64,000 bases of DNA from Williamsia sp. 1138 (GTDB lineage: Bacteria > Actinomycetota > Actinomycetes > Mycobacteriales > Mycobacteriaceae): the NCBI RefSeq assembly GCF_002095435.2, contig NZ_MJEJ02000047.1, forward strand, positions 124,001-188,000, read 5' to 3'. The notes beneath the pieces are model-generated. The model had not been told where the DNA came from and made no database searches. It saw only the letters and a list, made by a program, of their open reading frames with translations. Position numbers and translations under genes: made by a program. Each line of letters starts with the position of its first letter. Within the stretch, counting starts at the first letter, position 1. This document shows, piece by piece, positions 44,690 to 51,923 of this stretch.

Positions 44690-45226
44690 TCAATTCTTTT
44701 CGAAGCGTTCCCCGGTCACGTCGTAGAGATGGTGAACGGGGTCGTGGATGAAGTAGAGCGCCAGAGTTTCGACGGTGAACTCGCTGCCGTCGCTCCGCAG
44801 GCCACGCCGACCGAGTGCGTCGTCCGGAACCTCGGCGAACGCGTCGGCGACTCGGGTGGCGGCAGCCGTCAGTTCTGTCGCCACGTCACCGGGATCCTGA
44901 TCTAAATAGCGCTCGGCGATCGCGGTGGCGTCCTGATCCCAATTGTCGAACTCGGGGACATCCTGGGACAGCATCTGCTCGACGCGTTCGGTGAACTTGG
45001 TGAACACGTCGCGAACGTGGGCCGCGTACTCCAGCGGTGACCAGGTGTCATCGTCGGGCCGCAGGCGAGCATCACCGCCCGCGAGCGCAGTCGGCCATGC
45101 CGATGCGTTCTCCATGACCAGCCGGGGTATGTCCCGGTAGTCGACGATCGCGGGATCGAATCCGCAGTCCGGGCACGGTCGGTCGAGGACCCATGTCCAG
45201 TTCTTGGTGTCCGGTGTGATCGCCAT
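44690..45226 (-). CDS. DinB family protein
   Basis: 178 residues from ATG 45226 with GGGAG upstream; the frame extends to 45400 but that part is non-coding in character. It starts NWTWVLDRPCPDCGFDPAIV with a CxxC pair, followed by WSPLEYAAHVRDVF and ends FIHDPVHHLYDVTGE, giving three histidine positions for a DinB metal site. Function unknown; probably thiol-dependent transferase-like. Confidence 0.82.
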   Translation of the reverse strand: MAITPDTKNWTWVLDRPCPDCGFDPAIVDYRDIPRLVMENASAWPTALAGGDARLRPDDDTWSPLEYAAHVRDVFTKFTERVEQMLSQDVPEFDNWDQDATAIAERYLDQDPGDVATELTAAATRVADAFAEVPDDALGRRGLRSDGSEFTVETLALYFIHDPVHHLYDVTGERFEKN

Positions 45227-45312
45227 CGGGTCTCCCTTCATCAGGTGCGAGGCAAGATTACCGCTCCGGCGCGAGGGAGTGGGCAATTCGCGCGCGGCGC
45301 CCGTTACCGTTC

Positions 45313-45339
45313 CGTGACTTTTCGTGACCTTTTCGTGAT
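45313..45339 (+). promoter_or_regulatory. Three phased direct repeats upstream of the mys cluster
   Basis: CGTGAC at 45313-45318, CGTGAC at 45323-45328 and CGTGAT at 45334-45339, spaced 10 and 11 bp, embedded in T-rich spacers. One-turn phasing on one DNA face is typical of OmpR/PhoB-family or SARP-type regulators. It lies about 90 bp before the first gene of the cluster. No -10/-35 pair could be fixed. Confidence 0.5.
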
Positions 45340-45431
45340 ATTTGGTGCGACCTCGCCGACACCTGGTCTGTTCACACTCGAAGGGGTCGAGCAATGGCAT
45401 TGAACATCAACGGATTCCAGGAAGGAACATG

Positions 45432-46100
45432 ATGGCTGCCATCTTGTTTGGATCAATCAGTACCCTCGCAGACACCTCCGAGATTCAGCGTCGTGCGTTC
45501 AACGAAGCGTTCGAAGCCCACGGATTGGACTGGAAGTGGGGTCGCGACGACTACATTGCCATGTTGACGAGTAACGGTGGCGCGCAACGTATTGCTGACT
45601 ACGCCGAGTCTCGTGGCGAGACCGTCGATGCCGCTGCGATACACGCGACCAAATCGTCGATCTTTCAGGAATTGGTGGCGATGCTGGGTATCGAGCCCCG
45701 CGCAGGCGTCCTGGACGCGGTGGCGGCAGCGAAGACCCACAACGTCAAACTCGGACTGGTCACGACCACATCACCCGAGAACGTCACCGCGCTGCTCGCC
45801 GGACTTCCGGACGTGTCGCGCGAAACATTTGACGTGGTGGTCGATTCGGCCGCTGTCGAAACGGGAAAGCCGGACCCGGCGTCCTACAAGTACGCGTTGG
45901 ATCAGCTAGGGGAAGACGCCGCCTCGTGCGTTGCGATCGAGGACAACGTCGGCGGGGTGCACGCGGCCACCGCCGCCTCGGTGATCTGCGTTGCGTTCCC
46001 CAATCAGAACACCGTGAGCGGCGACTTCTCTGAAGCCGTCGAGGTCGTCGGGCAGCTCGATGCCGATCGTCTGCGCGCCTTGGCCGAACACGATCACTAG
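45432..46100 (+). CDS. HAD-fold protein lacking the catalytic motif I aspartates
   Basis: 222 residues from ATG 45432 (ATG 45429 is one codon earlier; AGGAAGG spacing favours 45432). Strong CbbY-type [23 protein letters not shown], motif II T in [10 protein letters not shown], motif III K in ETGKPDP and motif IV ED in [12 protein letters not shown]. But motif I, normally DxDGT, reads FGSISTL: G7 replaces the nucleophile and I9 the acid/base. It should not work as a phosphatase or mutase by the standard mechanism. It sits 28 nt before the cyclase gene, so it is probably part of the mys transcript, perhaps as a sugar-phosphate-binding or partner protein (inference). Confidence 0.85.
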
Positions 46101-46128
46101 CGCTCACCAGCAGTCAGAGAGGATTCAG

Positions 46129-47355
46129 ATGAGCGACATCCAAGCCCGCGTCACCGCCACCGAACGCGCTTTTCACGTCGAAGGCTACGAGAAGATCGAG
46201 TACGACCTGCTGTACGTCGACGGTGTCTTCTCCATCGACCAGCCACAATTGGCCGATACCTATCGCGGCTACGGCCGGTGCCTGATGGTGATCGACGAAA
46301 GTGTGTACGCGCTCTACGGTACGCAGATCCATCGGTACTTCGATCACCACGACCTGCAGCTCACGGTTGTCCCCGTCGGGATTGCCGAAACCGCTAAATC
46401 GCTCCGCACCTACGAGGACATAGTCGGCGAGTTCGACAAGTTCGGTCTCGTCCGGACCGAACCCGTCCTGGTGGTCGGCGGAGGGCTCACAACAGATGTG
46501 GCCGGTTTCGCGTGTGCCAGCTATCGACGAAATACGCCGTACATTCGGATTCCGACCACCCTGATCGGGCTGATCGATGCCAGTGTGTCGATCAAGGTGG
46601 CGGTCAATCACGGCAAGCACAAGAACCGGCTGGGGGCATATCACGCCTCCGAGAAAGTGTTGCTGGACTTTGCGTTCCTCCGAACCCTGCCTGCTGACCA
46701 GGTGCGTAACGGAATGGCCGAACTCATCAAGATCGCGACAGTCGGCAACGCGGCAATCTTCGACATGCTCGACGAGTACGGCCCTGAGTTGCTGCGCACC
46801 CGATTCGGGCACCTGGACGGGACCACCGAACTACGCGCGGTGGCGGACAAGCTGACCTATCAGGCCATCGAGACCATGCTCGAACTGGAGGCGCCGAATC
46901 TTCATGAGCTCATGCTCGACCGAGTCATCGCATTCGGGCACACCTGGAGTCCCACACTCGAACTCTCACCGCCGGAACCGTTCTTCCACGGTCATGCGAT
47001 CAACATCGACATGGCACTGTCGACGACGCTGGCCGAAAAGCGCGGGTTGATCTCCGTCGATGACCGCGACCGGATCCTGGGGGTGATGAACCGCCTGGGC
47101 CTCGCCCTCGACAGCGACCATCTCACGCCCGAGCTGCTCGCCGAGGCGACGCAGTCCATCCTCAGGACGCGAGATGGACTGCTGCGGGCCGCGGTACCCA
47201 ATCCGATCGGGCAGTGTCAGTTCCTCAATGACATCACCGTCGACGAACTCGCCGACACGCTCACCGTGCACAAGAAGATCTGTCTCGACTTCGAGCGCGA
47301 GGGTGCAGGGATCGACATGTTCACATCTGCGTCCTTGGCCTCCGTCGATGGCTGA
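46129..47355 (+). CDS. mysA: Sedoheptulose 7-phosphate cyclase, MysA type (desmethyl-4-deoxygadusol synthase)
   Basis: 408 residues from ATG 46129. 3-dehydroquinate synthase superfamily: NAD-binding [20 protein letters not shown], then [20 protein letters not shown] and [14 protein letters not shown], metal-site regions [19 protein letters not shown] and [13 protein letters not shown]. From recall, the [19 protein letters not shown] and LGAYHAS pattern is that of MysA rather than EEVS or true DHQ synthases. It turns sedoheptulose 7-phosphate into desmethyl-4-deoxygadusol, the first committed step to mycosporines. 8-nt overlap with the O-methyltransferase gene. Confidence 0.88.
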
Positions 47356-48181
47356 CACGGTGTCGATCCCGTCGCATCCGGTCACGCCTTCGACAATCCT
47401 TGCGGTGGAGTTGGCCGAACTCGTGGCGTTGGTGGACGCCGCGCCCGAGCTCGACCCGGGGCTCAAGGAGCGATTGCGCCGAGCGCGCGACCTGGCGCGC
47501 GGTCTCGATCCGTACCTGGAGGAGTGCTCGACGCCGGAGTCTCCGGCACTCGCCGCCCTGGCAGCGCGTACCCGGGCGGAGCGGTGGTCAGAGCGGTCGC
47601 TCGTCGCCGGATCGGGTCCGTTGGAACAGGAGATGCTGTCGGGCCATGTGGAAGGGCAGACGCTGAAGTTCCTGGTGCACATGACCCGTGCTCGTCGGGT
47701 CCTCGACATCGGGATGTTCACCGGGTACTCGGCGCTCGCGATGGCCGAGGCGCTCCCGGACGATGGGGAGGTGGTGGCCTGTGAGGTCGATCCGTACGTC
47801 GCCGACCTCGCCCGTCAGTGTTTTGCCGAATCACCCGCCGGCAAAAGGATTCGAGTGGAAGTCGGTCCAGCCCTGAACACGGTCCTCCGGCTCGACGGTC
47901 CGTTCGACGTGGTGTTCATCGACGCCGACAAAACCGGGTACCTCGACTACTTCCACTACCTCATCGGCAGTGACCTGCTCGCACCGCATGGCGTGATCGT
48001 CGTCGACAACACGCTCCTGCAGGGGGAGCCGTACGCGAACAACGGTGCCCGTTCCACCAACGGGCAAGCGATCGCCGACTTCAACCGGGTCGTCGCCGCG
48101 GACGCCAGGGTGGAGCAGGTGCTGCTGCCGTTGCGGGACGGGGTGACCCTCATCCGGCGAACGAGCACGGACGCGTCATGA
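47348..48181 (+). CDS. mysB: O-methyltransferase, MysB type
   Basis: 277 residues from ATG 47348. Class I SAM O-methyltransferase of the caffeoyl-CoA OMT kind: [53 protein letters not shown] and [13 protein letters not shown]. In mys clusters it methylates desmethyl-4-deoxygadusol to 4-deoxygadusol. Coupled to neighbours by overlaps of 8 and 4 nt. Confidence 0.9.
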
Positions 48182-49479
48182 CCGCAGCGTCGTCTGGCAA
48201 GACCATCGGTGCGCTGGTGGGACTTCTCGCCACATTGCCGGTCGATCTCGCGGTTACCGCGATCGCCGCGGTCCGTCGCGTGCCGAAGCCGGAGGTGGAC
48301 CAAACGAGCAGGCGCCGGACGGTTCTCATCACGGGCGGCAAGATGACCAAAGCGTTGTCGCTCGCCCGCGCGTTCCATCTGGCCGGCCACCGGGTGATCC
48401 TGGCAGAATCCACGAAGTATCGGCTCACCGGCCATCGTTTCTCCAACGCCGTCGACAGGTTTGTCTGCCTCCCGGAACCGACGTCACCGCACTATGCCGA
48501 CGCACTGCTCGACGTCGTCAAGCGCGAAGAAGTCGATGTCTTCGTGCCGGTCTCGAGTCCCGCGTCCAGCGTCTACGAGGCGGATGCGGGCGAAATCCTC
48601 GGAGACTTCTGTAACGTCGTCCACGGAAATCTGCGCACGGTGCGCATGGTCGATGACAAGGATCAATTCTCGGAGTTCGCGCGGTCGGTCGGTGTCCGGG
48701 TTCCTGATTCGCGGCGCATCACCGATCCGGTCCAGATCTCGGAGTTCGATTTCCCTCCCGGTCGCGAGTACATCCTGAAGCGAATTTCGTACAACCCCGT
48801 CGGTCGCATGGACCTCACGAAGCTCTCACGCGCGACGCCCGAGCGTAATCTGCAGTTCGCAGCGACCCTGCCGATCTCTGAAGAGGATCCGTGGATCTTG
48901 CAGGAATACGTTGCAGGCCAGGAGTATTGCACGCACGGTACCGCGCGTGCAGGGGATCTGCAGGTGTACGCGTGCTGTGAGTCGTCGGCCTTCCAGGTCA
49001 ACTACGAGATGGTGGACAAGCCGGAAATCCTCTCGTGGGTGCAGACATTCGTGGGTCGGCTCGGCGTCAGCGGCCAGTACTCGTTCGATTTCATCGAGGG
49101 TGCAGACGGACATGCCTACGCAATCGAGTGCAATCCGCGGACGCACTCGGCCATCACGATGTTCGAGGGCCATCCCCACCTGGCTTCTGCTTATCTCGAG
49201 GACCGGCACCCGATGATCGTCCCGGAAGCGGATTCCCTGCCGACGTACTGGATTTACCACGAGCTGTGGCGGTTGCTGACTGAACCGGGTCGCCGCGATC
49301 GCATGCGGGTCATCCGACGAGGACGCGACGCCATCTTCGCAGCATGGGATCCGCTCCCATACCTCCTCGTTCATCACCTGCAGATCCCGTCGTTGCTTGT
49401 GAGGAGCTTGATCGCCGGAAAAACGTGGACGCGTATCGATTTCAACATCGGCAAGCTCGTCGAGTCGGGAGGCGACTGA
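48178..49479 (+). CDS. mysC: ATP-grasp ligase, MysC type
   Basis: 433 residues. After a hydrophobic N-terminal segment (about 10-30), TVLITGGKMTKALSLARAFH opens the ATP-grasp enzyme, with HRVILAESTKYRLTGHRFSN, EYILKRISYNPVGRMDL, WILQEYVAGQEYCTHGTARA and FDFIEGADGHAYAIECNPR. MysC joins glycine to 4-deoxygadusol to give mycosporine-glycine. The N-terminal hydrophobic stretch fits cyanobacterial homologues. Confidence 0.9.
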   Translation: MTAASSGKTIGALVGLLATLPVDLAVTAIAAVRRVPKPEVDQTSRRRTVLITGGKMTKALSLARAFHLAGHRVILAESTKYRLTGHRFSNAVDRFVCLPEPTSPHYADALLDVVKREEVDVFVPVSSPASSVYEADAGEILGDFCNVVHGNLRTVRMVDDKDQFSEFARSVGVRVPDSRRITDPVQISEFDFPPGREYILKRISYNPVGRMDLTKLSRATPERNLQFAATLPISEEDPWILQEYVAGQEYCTHGTARAGDLQVYACCESSAFQVNYEMVDKPEILSWVQTFVGRLGVSGQYSFDFIEGADGHAYAIECNPRTHSAITMFEGHPHLASAYLEDRHPMIVPEADSLPTYWIYHELWRLLTEPGRRDRMRVIRRGRDAIFAAWDPLPYLLVHHLQIPSLLVRSLIAGKTWTRIDFNIGKLVESGGD

Positions 49480-50513
49480 TGCAAAACCTCAAGGTTCTGG
49501 CCTTGGCAGGCTCGCCCGTCGACCACTTCGGCGCCGACCTGTCCCGGGTGTACGCAACGGGTTTCGTGGATGCCTTCAGGGGTCTGACCGGTTACCAGGT
49601 CGAGGTGGCCTACGTATCGCCTGATGGCAGTTGGCGGTTTCTGAGTGGGCTGCACGAGGACGAGATCGCTGCAGCGCAGGAGGTGTCCCTTTCGGATGCC
49701 GTCGGCTACATCCAGGCGCGACGCTATGACGTGATCGTTCCCGAGATGTTCTGTCTCCCGGGTATGACGGCGTACCGGTCGCTGTTCGACGTGATCGGTG
49801 TCCCGTACCTGGGTAACCGTGCCGATGTCATGGCGCTGACGGCCGACAAGCACTTGACCCGCCTTGTTGCCGCCGCGGCGGGGGTCGCGGTTCCCGCCGG
49901 CGAGGTGCTCCGGGCTGGTGAGAAGTACACCGGGGAATTGCCTGTGGTCGTCAAACCCGCGGACTCCGACAACTCCATGGGCGTGGCATTGGTGCGAGAA
50001 GACTCGGACATGGACCTCGCGATCGCCGACGCGCTGCTGTACTCGGATTCGGCACTGGTCGAGACCTACGTGCCACTGGGCCGAGAGGTGCGGTGCGGCA
50101 TCATCGTTCGCGATGGAGAGTTGGTGTGCCTGCCACTCGAGGAGTACGCAGTCGACGAACAGACCCACCCCATCCGTGCTCGCGCCGACAAGCTGGACCG
50201 GACCTCCGAGGGTCAGCTGTACCTGGTGGCGAAAGAGTCCACCAAGGCGTGGATCGTCGACGTGGACGACCCGGTGACCGAGGCGGTATGGGCCGCCGCC
50301 CGACGCGCTCACATCGCTCTCGGTTGCCGGCACTACAGTCTGTTCGACTTCCGGGTCGATCCGGGCGGCGTGCCCTGGTTTCTCGAGGCCGGACTGTACT
50401 GCTCGTACTCACCGAGCAGCGTGATCGCGGTGATGGCCGCCGCCGCCGGTATCACCGTCGATGAGTTGTTCGCCATCGGCGTGCGGGAGATCGCCCACGA
50501 GAAGGCTCGCTGA
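49479..50513 (+). CDS. mysD: D-Ala-D-Ala ligase homologue, MysD type
   Basis: 344 residues from ATG 49479 (1-nt overlap with mysC). ATP-grasp core: YLGNRADVMALTADKHLTRL, PVVVKPADSDNSMGVALV, VETYVPLGREVRCGIIVRDG, FDFRVDPGGVPWFLEAGL and CSYSPSSVIAVMA. In MAA pathways MysD attaches a second amino acid (Ser, Thr, Ala and others) to mycosporine-glycine through an imine. Cell-wall D-Ala ligase is unlikely, given the operon and divergent C-terminus. Confidence 0.87.
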   Translation: MQNLKVLALAGSPVDHFGADLSRVYATGFVDAFRGLTGYQVEVAYVSPDGSWRFLSGLHEDEIAAAQEVSLSDAVGYIQARRYDVIVPEMFCLPGMTAYRSLFDVIGVPYLGNRADVMALTADKHLTRLVAAAAGVAVPAGEVLRAGEKYTGELPVVVKPADSDNSMGVALVREDSDMDLAIADALLYSDSALVETYVPLGREVRCGIIVRDGELVCLPLEEYAVDEQTHPIRARADKLDRTSEGQLYLVAKESTKAWIVDVDDPVTEAVWAAARRAHIALGCRHYSLFDFRVDPGGVPWFLEAGLYCSYSPSSVIAVMAAAAGITVDELFAIGVREIAHEKAR

Positions 50514-51274
50514 TGCAGTGTCAGGTCTTCGATCCGATCGGTGCCCGCGTCGCCGAACTGTCATTGGACGAGGTGGACGCCGGTGACGTGGCCCGGCTCG
50601 AGAAGCTGCTGGCCGAGTCCGGTGTCGTGGTCATTCCAGACCAGAACATCGACGACAGGGCGTTTCTCGCGTTCCTGAAGCGGTTCGGTGAGCTGATGTT
50701 CACCACGGGCGAGATGCCGCTCGCGGGCTACCCTGACCTCAACGTCATCAGCAATGTCGGCCGGACGACACCGCCGAAGTCCACCTTTCACGTCGACACG
50801 ACGTATGTGTCGCAGCCGCCACGGTACACAGCATTACGTGCGGTGCACGTGCCCCACGAGGGTGGTCACACCCAGTTCAGCAATCAGTACGCGGCATACG
50901 ACACGCTCCCCGATGAGATTCGGGACGACCTGGCCGGCCGCCTCGTGACCCATGTGGTCACCGGGGTGGATCCGGGCGATGAGCAGGAAACCTCTGCTGC
51001 CCATCCGATCTTTCTGACCCACCCGTTGACCGGGAAGACCGCGCTCTATCTTTCGGCAGCGGCGAGGTGTTCGGCGATCAGCGGCAAGACGTCGCAAGAG
51101 ACAGAGGAGATCGTCGCCTATCTGATCGGCCACTCGACGCGAGAGGACAACGTCTTTCGGCACGCCTGGTCCGCCGGTGATGTCGTGATGTGGGACAACC
51201 GGGTTGTCATGCACCGCGCCGACCACAGCGGTGTGATCGGCGACCGCGTGATGCATCGGGGAATGGTTCGTTGA
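50513..51274 (+). CDS. mysH: Fe(II)/2-oxoglutarate dioxygenase, MysH type
   Basis: 253 residues, TauD/TfdA family. Metal triad H93-x-D95 in KSTFHVDTTYV and H234 in DNRVVMHRADH; 2-oxoglutarate arginine probably R249 in RVMHRGMVR. In cyanobacteria MysH-type enzymes convert disubstituted MAAs to palythines by trimming the glycine substituent. TGATG overlap with mysD makes it the last gene of the operon. Assignment as MysH rests on the context plus the fold. Confidence 0.82.
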   Translation: MQCQVFDPIGARVAELSLDEVDAGDVARLEKLLAESGVVVIPDQNIDDRAFLAFLKRFGELMFTTGEMPLAGYPDLNVISNVGRTTPPKSTFHVDTTYVSQPPRYTALRAVHVPHEGGHTQFSNQYAAYDTLPDEIRDDLAGRLVTHVVTGVDPGDEQETSAAHPIFLTHPLTGKTALYLSAAARCSAISGKTSQETEEIVAYLIGHSTREDNVFRHAWSAGDVVMWDNRVVMHRADHSGVIGDRVMHRGMVR

Positions 51275-51485
51275 CGTTCTCCCATACACCGACCGTGCCG
51301 AAACTCGCGCCGACCGTGCCCTTGCGGTCGTCGAGCGTGCGCTTGTTGCTCGAATCCGACGATGTCAGACCCCTTTGATATCCTAGTTGCGGCCGGCGTC
51401 CGATATGTCGAAAGGCGTTGCAGCACAGACGGAAAAGTCTTATCGAACACTTGTGCTAACCCGAAATCCGCGGTACCTTCATTTC

Positions 51486-51923
51486 ATGAACTTCGGGGGA
51501 TTGTTCGAACACCTATCAATGATGGCGGCAGATACACTTCTGCTCGCACCGCTCGACGACGTAGCGTTGTCAGAGGAAACGGTTCACGCACTGCGGGCGC
51601 CTGATCCGCGCAGCACACCGCAACGTCTGTCCGAAGGTGGGGTGAAACCGCGGGTGACGATGACCGTCTCCGCCGAGCACCTCCTGGCCTTACAGATGAA
51701 CGGCATCCCCGGCGCGAAAGTACCCACCGCGGCCGCGACGTTCGAGTGGACCGGACCGGTGTCGTTGCCCACCGCGCAGATGACGGTGTGCGATTCGGTG
51801 ATCACCAAGATCCTGCTCGACAACAACGCCGTACCACTCGAGGTGGGACGCGAGTTCCGCACGGTCACACCCGCCATCCGCAAAGCACTGATCGCGCGGG
51901 GCAACGAACCACTCGCCGCCTGA
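51486..51923 (+). pseudogene. DUF222/HNH endonuclease remnant
   Basis: A fragment (about 146 codons from ATG 51486) with EHLSMMAADTLLLAPL and VTMTVSAEHLLALQMNGIPG, then ITKILLDNNAVPLEVGREFR and TPAIRKALIARGNE. This is the middle of the DUF222 family that usually continues into a C-terminal HNH nuclease (CxxPGCxxP...H). Here it stops at 51923, without the HNH part, and lacks a clear N-terminus, so it is a decayed copy. DUF222-HNH genes are numerous and mobile in Gordonia and mycobacteria. Confidence 0.7.

Follow-up and report, generated by a model that had tools for sequence, protein, structure and literature searches.

A probable mycosporine-like amino acid operon of Williamsia opened by a CbbY-like HAD protein with invariantly replaced motif I aspartates

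The Williamsia operon and its cyclase

The 64,000-nt stretch of Williamsia sp. 1138 DNA analysed here (the window) carries six genes on the + strand at positions 45429–51274, encoding a HAD-like protein, a cyclase, an O-methyltransferase, MysC, MysD and a 2-oxoglutarate oxygenase:

45429–46100, + strand: HAD-like gene (P0001, 223 aa; PF00702, E 9.8e-20), putative CbbY-fold pseudo-phosphatase with G8-S9-I10 at motif I
46129–47355, + strand: MysA/desmethyl-4-deoxygadusol synthase (DDGS) (P0002, 408 aa; PF01761, E 5.5e-30)
47348–48181, + strand: MysB-type O-methyltransferase (P0003, 277 aa; Methyltransf_3, PF01596, E 5.6e-46)
48178–49479, + strand: MysC, ATP-grasp type ligase (P0004, 433 aa; NF005315)
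49479–50513, + strand: MysD, D-Ala-D-Ala ligase-like amino-acid ligase (P0005, 344 aa; PF07478, E 1.4e-16)
50513–51274, + strand: TauD/TfdA-family Fe(II)/2OG oxygenase (P0006, 253 aa; PF02668, E 3.5e-52)

Gene calls and Pfam confirmed the operon of the initial annotation, with six genes in one direction opened by the HAD-like gene. The end given for it (51274) was exact, but the start (45313) precedes the first start codon by 116 bp; likewise, the gene ends overlap as described from the cyclase through to the oxygenase (by 8, 4, 1 and 1 bp, in order), but the HAD and cyclase genes are 28 bp apart. The sequence GGAAGGA stands just upstream of the HAD start codon. The promoter scan returned no sigma-70 match, and five terminator-like sites were found against a shuffle mean of 4.0. 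Pfam and NCBIfam scans detected no NRPS among the six genes. The Pfam match of MysC was weak (PylC-like_N, below the cut-off), while its score against the NCBIfam model NF005315 (‘hypothetical protein’) was 407.7 bits, with a cut-off of 406; its substrate step would be the attachment of glycine to 4-deoxygadusol.

Among PDB entries, the cyclase scored 557 bits with 5tpr, which we take to be the Anabaena DDGS, 269 bits with 4p53, presumably the EEVS ValA, and 118 bits with the best DHQ synthase (DHQS). In the cyclase tree, the window sequence and 5tpr fell into a starred clade of 46 rows (SH-aLRT 97, by a quick method), apart from the ValA, EEVS-like and DHQS rows. Residue H287 was replaced by L in one of the 69 rows of the DDGS alignment. 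The comparison with DDGS, EEVS and DHQ synthases that had been proposed as a check gave no grouping with the latter two, and the assignment to the MysA type held. Because the cyclase belongs with DDGS, there is good support for a pathway to a mycosporine-like amino acid (MAA), a natural UV sunscreen. The O-methyltransferase, the ATP-grasp MysC and MysD adjoin it in the same direction, as an MAA cluster (mysABCD) requires, and protein families and cyclase placement together bear out an MAA cluster comprising DDGS, O-methyltransferase, MysC, MysD and a 2OG oxygenase. The Williamsia operon is thus very probably an actinobacterial MAA operon. An EEVS or DHQ synthase identity for the cyclase, with aminocyclitol synthesis or primary metabolism as the function of the operon, is extremely improbable and was rejected: Pfam and NCBIfam label the protein merely as DHQ-synthase-like, but the PDB scores and the tree place it with DDGS, MysC and MysD come after it, and a further cyclase match in the same genome, weaker than 1e-60, is presumably its DHQ synthase.

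The oxygenase and the expected product

The oxygenase had been called MysH-type, and this did not stand. It matched the TauD family (PF02668, 178 bits) and contains H93-x-D95...H234 and R249, whereas no Pfam match to PhyH appeared even at E ≤ 10, and BLASTP against a PhyH-family protein of Nostoc sp. HK-01 gave nothing meaningful (E 20), the latter being a protein annotated as hypothetical and chosen by its position between MysC- and MysD-like genes of a plasmid MAA cluster, not a characterised MysH. MysH is described as a member of the phytanoyl-CoA dioxygenase (PhyH) family (PMC10510106, PMC11378024); it shares with the Williamsia enzyme the cofactor class and the expected outcome, palythines, but not the protein family. 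The name MysI has been given to the TauD/TfdA dioxygenase of MAA clusters, with a proposed hydroxylation of glycine that leaves an amine (PMC10510106). By its description there, MysI of Nostoc sp. UHCC 0926 resembles P0006 as a TauD/TfdA dioxygenase in an MAA cluster but, unlike it, lies on a plasmid together with MysF and MysE. No MysI sequence emerged from a search for TauD in cyanobacteria, which matched 21 of 349 genomes (E ≤ 1e-15), the best being Drouetiella (259.5 bits) and the next 99.1 bits; no mys genes were recognised by eye within 1.5 kb of the next nine loci (L139–L147).

The gene set itself is already described in relatives. A 2025 preprint counts HAD and TauD among the well-conserved genes of MAA clusters (>60%) and proposes that TauD has a part in palythine formation; it also cites unpublished expression of the Rhodococcus fascians D188 operon yielding shinorine, palythine and palythine-serine (PMC11888242). 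As described there, the clusters (those of Pseudonocardia alni and R. fascians D188) have the same gene content as the Williamsia operon, in which HAD and TauD likewise accompany DHQS-like, O-methyltransferase and ATP-grasp genes. With the present operon, this newly reported cluster type gains a Williamsia member that is also a source of sunscreen enzymes. In a review table, amir_4259–4256 of A. mirum are linked to shinorine in yeast (PMC10384724); the table row is silent on which A. mirum genes were expressed, and on whether the HAD gene was included.

Judging from family membership, DDGS would convert sedoheptulose 7-phosphate into desmethyl-4-deoxygadusol and the methyltransferase would turn this into 4-deoxygadusol, to which MysC would attach glycine and MysD a second amino acid, giving a shinorine-type compound. 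The TauD oxygenase may then hydroxylate an amino-acid substituent, which would be lost to leave a ring amine. A palythine-type product is plausible.

The HAD-like protein and its distribution

The best PDB match of the HAD-like protein by sequence is CbbY, and a structural model (pLDDT 93.9) recovered the CbbY entries 4uau (E 9.3e-20) and 4uar (Z 29.9, rmsd 2.1 over 221 residues) in a fold search. In CbbY phosphatase, the D-x-D of motif I supplies the nucleophile and the general acid. All 62 MAA-linked HADs have G8-S9-I10 instead, while T112, K147, E171 and D172 (T of motif II, K of III and E-D of IV) are kept in all 62; that is, the fold and motifs II–IV of a CbbY phosphatase are present and motif I is not. 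Compared with the xylulose-1,5-bisphosphate phosphatase CbbY (4uar/4uau), the protein thus differs in having G and I in place of D8 and D10 and in being encoded in an MAA operon. Of the 41 invariant positions, 25 equal RsCbbY, against 80 of all 203 aligned positions, although such a figure alone is no proof of a kept ligand pocket, since in any family shared residues are expected to concentrate at invariant positions. The family alignments were built from trimmed open frames, and the HAD tree had long outgroup branches and poor resolution, 10 of its 38 inner branches being starred.

Between the window and three close Williamsia, dN/dS was 0.056, 0.053 and 0.047 for HAD and 0.040, 0.043 and 0.068 for DDGS in the same pairs; against the more distant G131 of the same genus, HAD gave 0.174, the highest value of the six genes. 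On conservation and dN/dS, a chance or decaying gene was rejected. The protein would appear to be a CbbY-fold pseudo-phosphatase that is catalytically dead, and phosphatase action is not to be expected of it. We found no published mention of a pseudo-phosphatase nature of the MAA-cluster HAD, and the excerpts of PMC11888242 make no mention of missing catalytic residues, which we found to be replaced.

As the initial annotation had proposed, we searched relatives for the same gene order. Of 60 actinobacterial loci compared, 44 showed the order HAD-mysABCD-oxygenase; the 60 exclude the window and six duplicate copies from genomes already represented, and include 19 loci retrieved by means of HAD and two contig ends that belong to a single genome. 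HAD immediately precedes DDGS in 58 of the 60, the exceptions being L054 (no DDGS) and L079 (contig end), and MysC and MysD occur with HAD in every locus uncut by a contig end. The HAD search gave 22 loci. L057 was set aside (27% over 85 residues), and the remaining 21 (L036–L056), having been fetched with HAD, are no evidence of its presence. When only genomes found by the cyclase are counted, HAD stands 5′ of DDGS in 50 of 50 actinobacterial genomes, window included. The gene had been called an unusual leading gene; it is standard in the sampled actinobacterial MAA clusters and was reported earlier (PMC11888242). The replacement of its catalytic aspartates had gone unremarked in the initial annotation.

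In cyanobacteria, HAD was absent at all nine DDGS loci from eight sampled genomes other than Drouetiella, none of which has a HAD homologue above 100 bits. As cyanobacterial clusters mostly lack HAD, the core chemistry there is independent of it. Whereas the excerpts of PMC11888242 place HAD and TauD outside Cyanobacteriota, we found HAD in two cyanobacterial MAGs (Drouetiella and Chamaesiphon, the contig of the latter ending just after HAD) and TauD in one.

Possible roles of the HAD-like protein

We tentatively consider the HAD-like protein to be a non-hydrolysing binding partner of the MAA pathway that supports or regulates flux. It might hold a phosphorylated ligand, either a sugar phosphate or a phospho-activated intermediate of the MysC/MysD ligases, or it might dock on MysC/MysD. 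Because the catalytic residues are invariantly replaced, a binding or regulatory role is directly testable; such a role may explain why HAD occurs in every actinobacterial MAA cluster sampled by cyclase.

Two narrower readings tie the protein to a single neighbour. It could be a partner of the TauD oxygenase in palythine formation, perhaps a subunit that stabilises or delivers, and the pair would move as a module. In Drouetiella (L052), HAD and TauD adjoin and are divergent from mysABCD, and genome G733, one DDGS of which is 91% identical to that of Drouetiella, matches neither TauD (E ≤ 1e-10) nor HAD (E ≤ 1e-5); in Microlunatus flavus (L054), both stand beside MysC and MysD in a genome with no DDGS-grade match (best cyclase match 97.8 bits, 29% identity). 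However, HAD remains intact where there is no close TauD (L047, L051 and L081) or an interrupted one (L039, L089 and L116, frames that may be assembly errors), and the position of TauD varies between loci while HAD stays 5′ of DDGS, so that this partnership seems unlikely.

Service to the cyclase, by binding sedoheptulose 7-phosphate or a bisphosphate and so channelling, buffering or sensing the DDGS substrate, is rather doubtful too. It would fit the near-constant place of HAD before DDGS and the closest relative, CbbY, which binds a ketose bisphosphate (the PDB holds a D10N mutant with bound xylulose-1,5-bisphosphate), but M. flavus keeps HAD with no better cyclase match than that given above, and the nine cyanobacterial DDGS loci outside Drouetiella and Chamaesiphon do without it. 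As sole explanations, both are weakened by loci without the other gene.

A still less probable reading is that the protein is catalytically active in some other chemistry, through conserved residues other than the motif I aspartates. The G-S-I is invariant without drift, and at 16 of the invariant positions the residue is not that of RsCbbY, as would fit selection for a new function; yet the protein has lost both of the aspartates by which HAD phosphate chemistry is defined and, to our knowledge, every step of the known MAA pathway already has its enzyme.

Returning to the non-hydrolysing binding partner, it is possible, and we put it forward with some reserve, that actinobacteria and a few acquiring cyanobacteria have a dedicated CbbY-derived G-S-I pseudo-phosphatase, which would bind a phospho-ligand with MysC/MysD and would belong to a wider ‘FGSI’ HAD family reaching beyond MAA clusters. 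Of five HAD homologues translated from outside MAA clusters, four could be read. The HAD-IA protein of Roseobacter litoralis plasmid pROLI81 (L058), which has no annotated MAA gene in the 10 kb flanking it on each side, shares the FGSI motif and 42% identity with the Williamsia protein, and the other three (L059, L063 and L064) carry D-x-D.

The operon and its cyclase

Six co-directional genes occupy positions 45429-51274 of the window, which lies in a genome of 6.08 Mb. The nearest named relatives at the locus are Williamsia soli, Williamsia sp. 1135 and W. limnetica, whose HAD proteins are 93-95% identical.

Features of the operon and its flanks (operon genes by Pfam/NCBIfam)
44690-45400, minus strand: DinB_2-family gene, divergent from the operon; its listed ORF start lies within the operon's 5' region
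45429-51274, co-directional:
gene 1, P0001: HAD hydrolase
gene 2, P0002: DHQ-synthase-like cyclase
gene 3, P0003: Methyltransf_3
gene 4, P0004: NF005315-type protein (407.7 bits, cut-off 406)
gene 5, P0005: Dala_Dala_lig_C
gene 6, P0006: TauD
51387-51923, plus strand: orphan ORF of 178 aa, 3' of the operon

The orphan ORF, with no Pfam match of its own, looks like a remnant, because it resembles a W. limnetica frame (L038:15063-16343; phmmer, 214 bits) comprising DUF222 and HNH in Pfam.

The MysA-type cyclase proposed in the initial annotation was borne out. In PDB searches, P0002 reached 557 bits against 5tpr and 269 against 4p53, while no DHQ synthase (DHQS) exceeded 118. The first two entries, titled '3-dehydroquinate synthase' and 'Cyclase', we take to be Anabaena desmethyl-4-deoxygadusol synthase (DDGS) and the EEVS ValA, respectively. 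When cyclases of the DDGS, EEVS and DHQS types were compared, as had been proposed, in a quick-method tree of 62 rows, the window, 5tpr and other mycosporine-like amino acid (MAA) cyclases formed one starred group (SH-aLRT 97), with ValA, EEVS-like proteins and DHQS outside it. The DDGS residues E198, E254 and H271 were invariant in 69/69 sequences and H287 was present in 68/69. These comparisons indicate that P0002 is a DDGS.

A TauD-family oxygenase

P0006 matches PF02668 (TauD) with 178 bits and does not match the PhyH profile even at E<=10. In an alignment of 58 rows (the unrelated L047 match excluded), the TauD residues H93, D95, H234 and R249 are present in 56, 56, 57 and 57 rows, and are kept wherever the row is ungapped. 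PMC10510106 describes MysH as a phytanoyl-CoA dioxygenase and gives the name MysI to a TauD/TfdA dioxygenase of cyanobacterial MAA clusters, proposed to hydroxylate glycine, leaving the amine behind; P0006 is of the same protein family as MysI. A PhyH-family gene (115 bits; annotated hypothetical), by sequence a candidate MysH, sits between MysC- and MysD-like genes in a plasmid MAA cluster of Nostoc sp. HK-01 (L137:12634-13437); its product has no similarity to P0006 (BLASTP E 20). On these results the MysH identity given initially was rejected. A palythine-type product is still reasonable, via an oxygenase family distinct from MysH.

Prevalence and gene order

The cyclase query found DDGS of at least 61% identity in 45 of 301 host-family genomes, the window's own counted (5/9 same-genus genomes among those listed), and in 5 more from wider samplings of the phylum (396) and the class (394). 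Each of these 50 genomes carries the HAD gene 5' of its cyclase; in G262, whose cyclase is divided across the ends of two contigs, it lies ahead of the first part. TauD is intact in 46/50 and interrupted in G116, G298 and G1327, while none was detected around the G509 cluster. A search for the same order in related genomes, suggested at the outset, recovered it in 44 of 60 actinobacterial loci, among them L039 and L089 with interrupted TauD; TauD is 3' of the methyltransferase in seven (one, L116, interrupted), and a TauD match is 5' of the HAD in three, that of L047 being weak (68 bits) and unrelated-looking.

A 2025 preprint (PMC11888242) describes HAD and TauD/TfdA as well conserved in MAA clusters of Actinomycetota, Pseudomonadota and Bacillota and absent from Cyanobacteriota, and cites unpublished work in which S. 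coelicolor expressing an operon from Rhodococcus fascians made shinorine, palythine and palythine-serine. The window operon, with the same HAD and TauD content, thus belongs to a kind already described, and its leading gene, initially called unusual, is standard among the actinobacterial clusters sampled.

Two host-family members differ in other ways. One has an in-frame TGA within the DDGS frame (G078:C38:229924-231126). In G266, DDGS and MysC matches are only about 90 bp apart (L066:9625-9718), with no methyltransferase match across the 19.9 kb locus; this genome may make an unmethylated product or use a different methyltransferase.

The HAD protein

The closest solved relative of P0001 (confident model, pLDDT 93.9), by both sequence and fold, is the phosphatase CbbY. 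The fold is common to both, but motif I reads F-D-V-D-G-T in CbbY and F-G-S-I-S-T in P0001. Loss of both motif I aspartates is expected to abolish HAD phosphoryl transfer, and P0001, judged from its sequence, would have lost this activity. G8, S9 and I10 are invariant across 62 MAA-linked HADs (the window and 61 loci), as are T112, K147, E171 and D172. The residue of the CbbY reference, RsCbbY, is found at 25/41 invariant positions versus 80/203 of all aligned positions, although the invariant sites of any family would show part of this surplus. dN/dS values for HAD, DDGS and TauD were 0.056, 0.040 and 0.222; 0.053, 0.043 and 0.352; and 0.047, 0.068 and 0.173 against three close Williamsia, and 0.174, 0.084 and 0.150 against the more distant G131, where the HAD value was the highest among the six operon genes. 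No report of a pseudo-phosphatase nature for the MAA-cluster HAD was found among titles and abstract openings of the open-licence PMC literature, or in the parts of PMC11888242 consulted.

Among 386 cyanobacterial genomes, a sample centred on Drouetiella, Drouetiella alone carries a close HAD, at 243.7 bits against 105.9 for the next best; it adjoins TauD and is divergent from mysABCD; two lower-scoring HADs, when translated, both have D-x-D. Chamaesiphon (L049) is a second cyanobacterial case of HAD. A Roseobacter litoralis plasmid HAD (L058:9989-10660; 42% identical) has FGSI and lies beside TrkA/TrkH and L,D-transpeptidase genes; its surroundings hold no annotated MAA gene, so FGSI also occurs outside MAA clusters.

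Six loci that lack an intact TauD close by (L039, L047, L051, L081, L089 and L116) still keep the HAD. So does Microlunatus flavus, whose genome yields no match of DDGS grade: HAD, TauD, MysC and MysD lie side by side there (L054:9001-12898), and neither a cyclase nor a methyltransferase is matched within the locus. This cluster may be degraded or supplied with an outside precursor. Every HAD locus that is not cut by a contig end also has MysC and MysD. The pattern points to, rather than proves, a role in which it would act with these ligases or their phospho-activated intermediates, or in general binding or regulation. The link is one-way, since nine cyanobacterial loci without HAD still have MysC (9/9) and MysD (5/9), which suggests that the MAA core chemistry can run without it.
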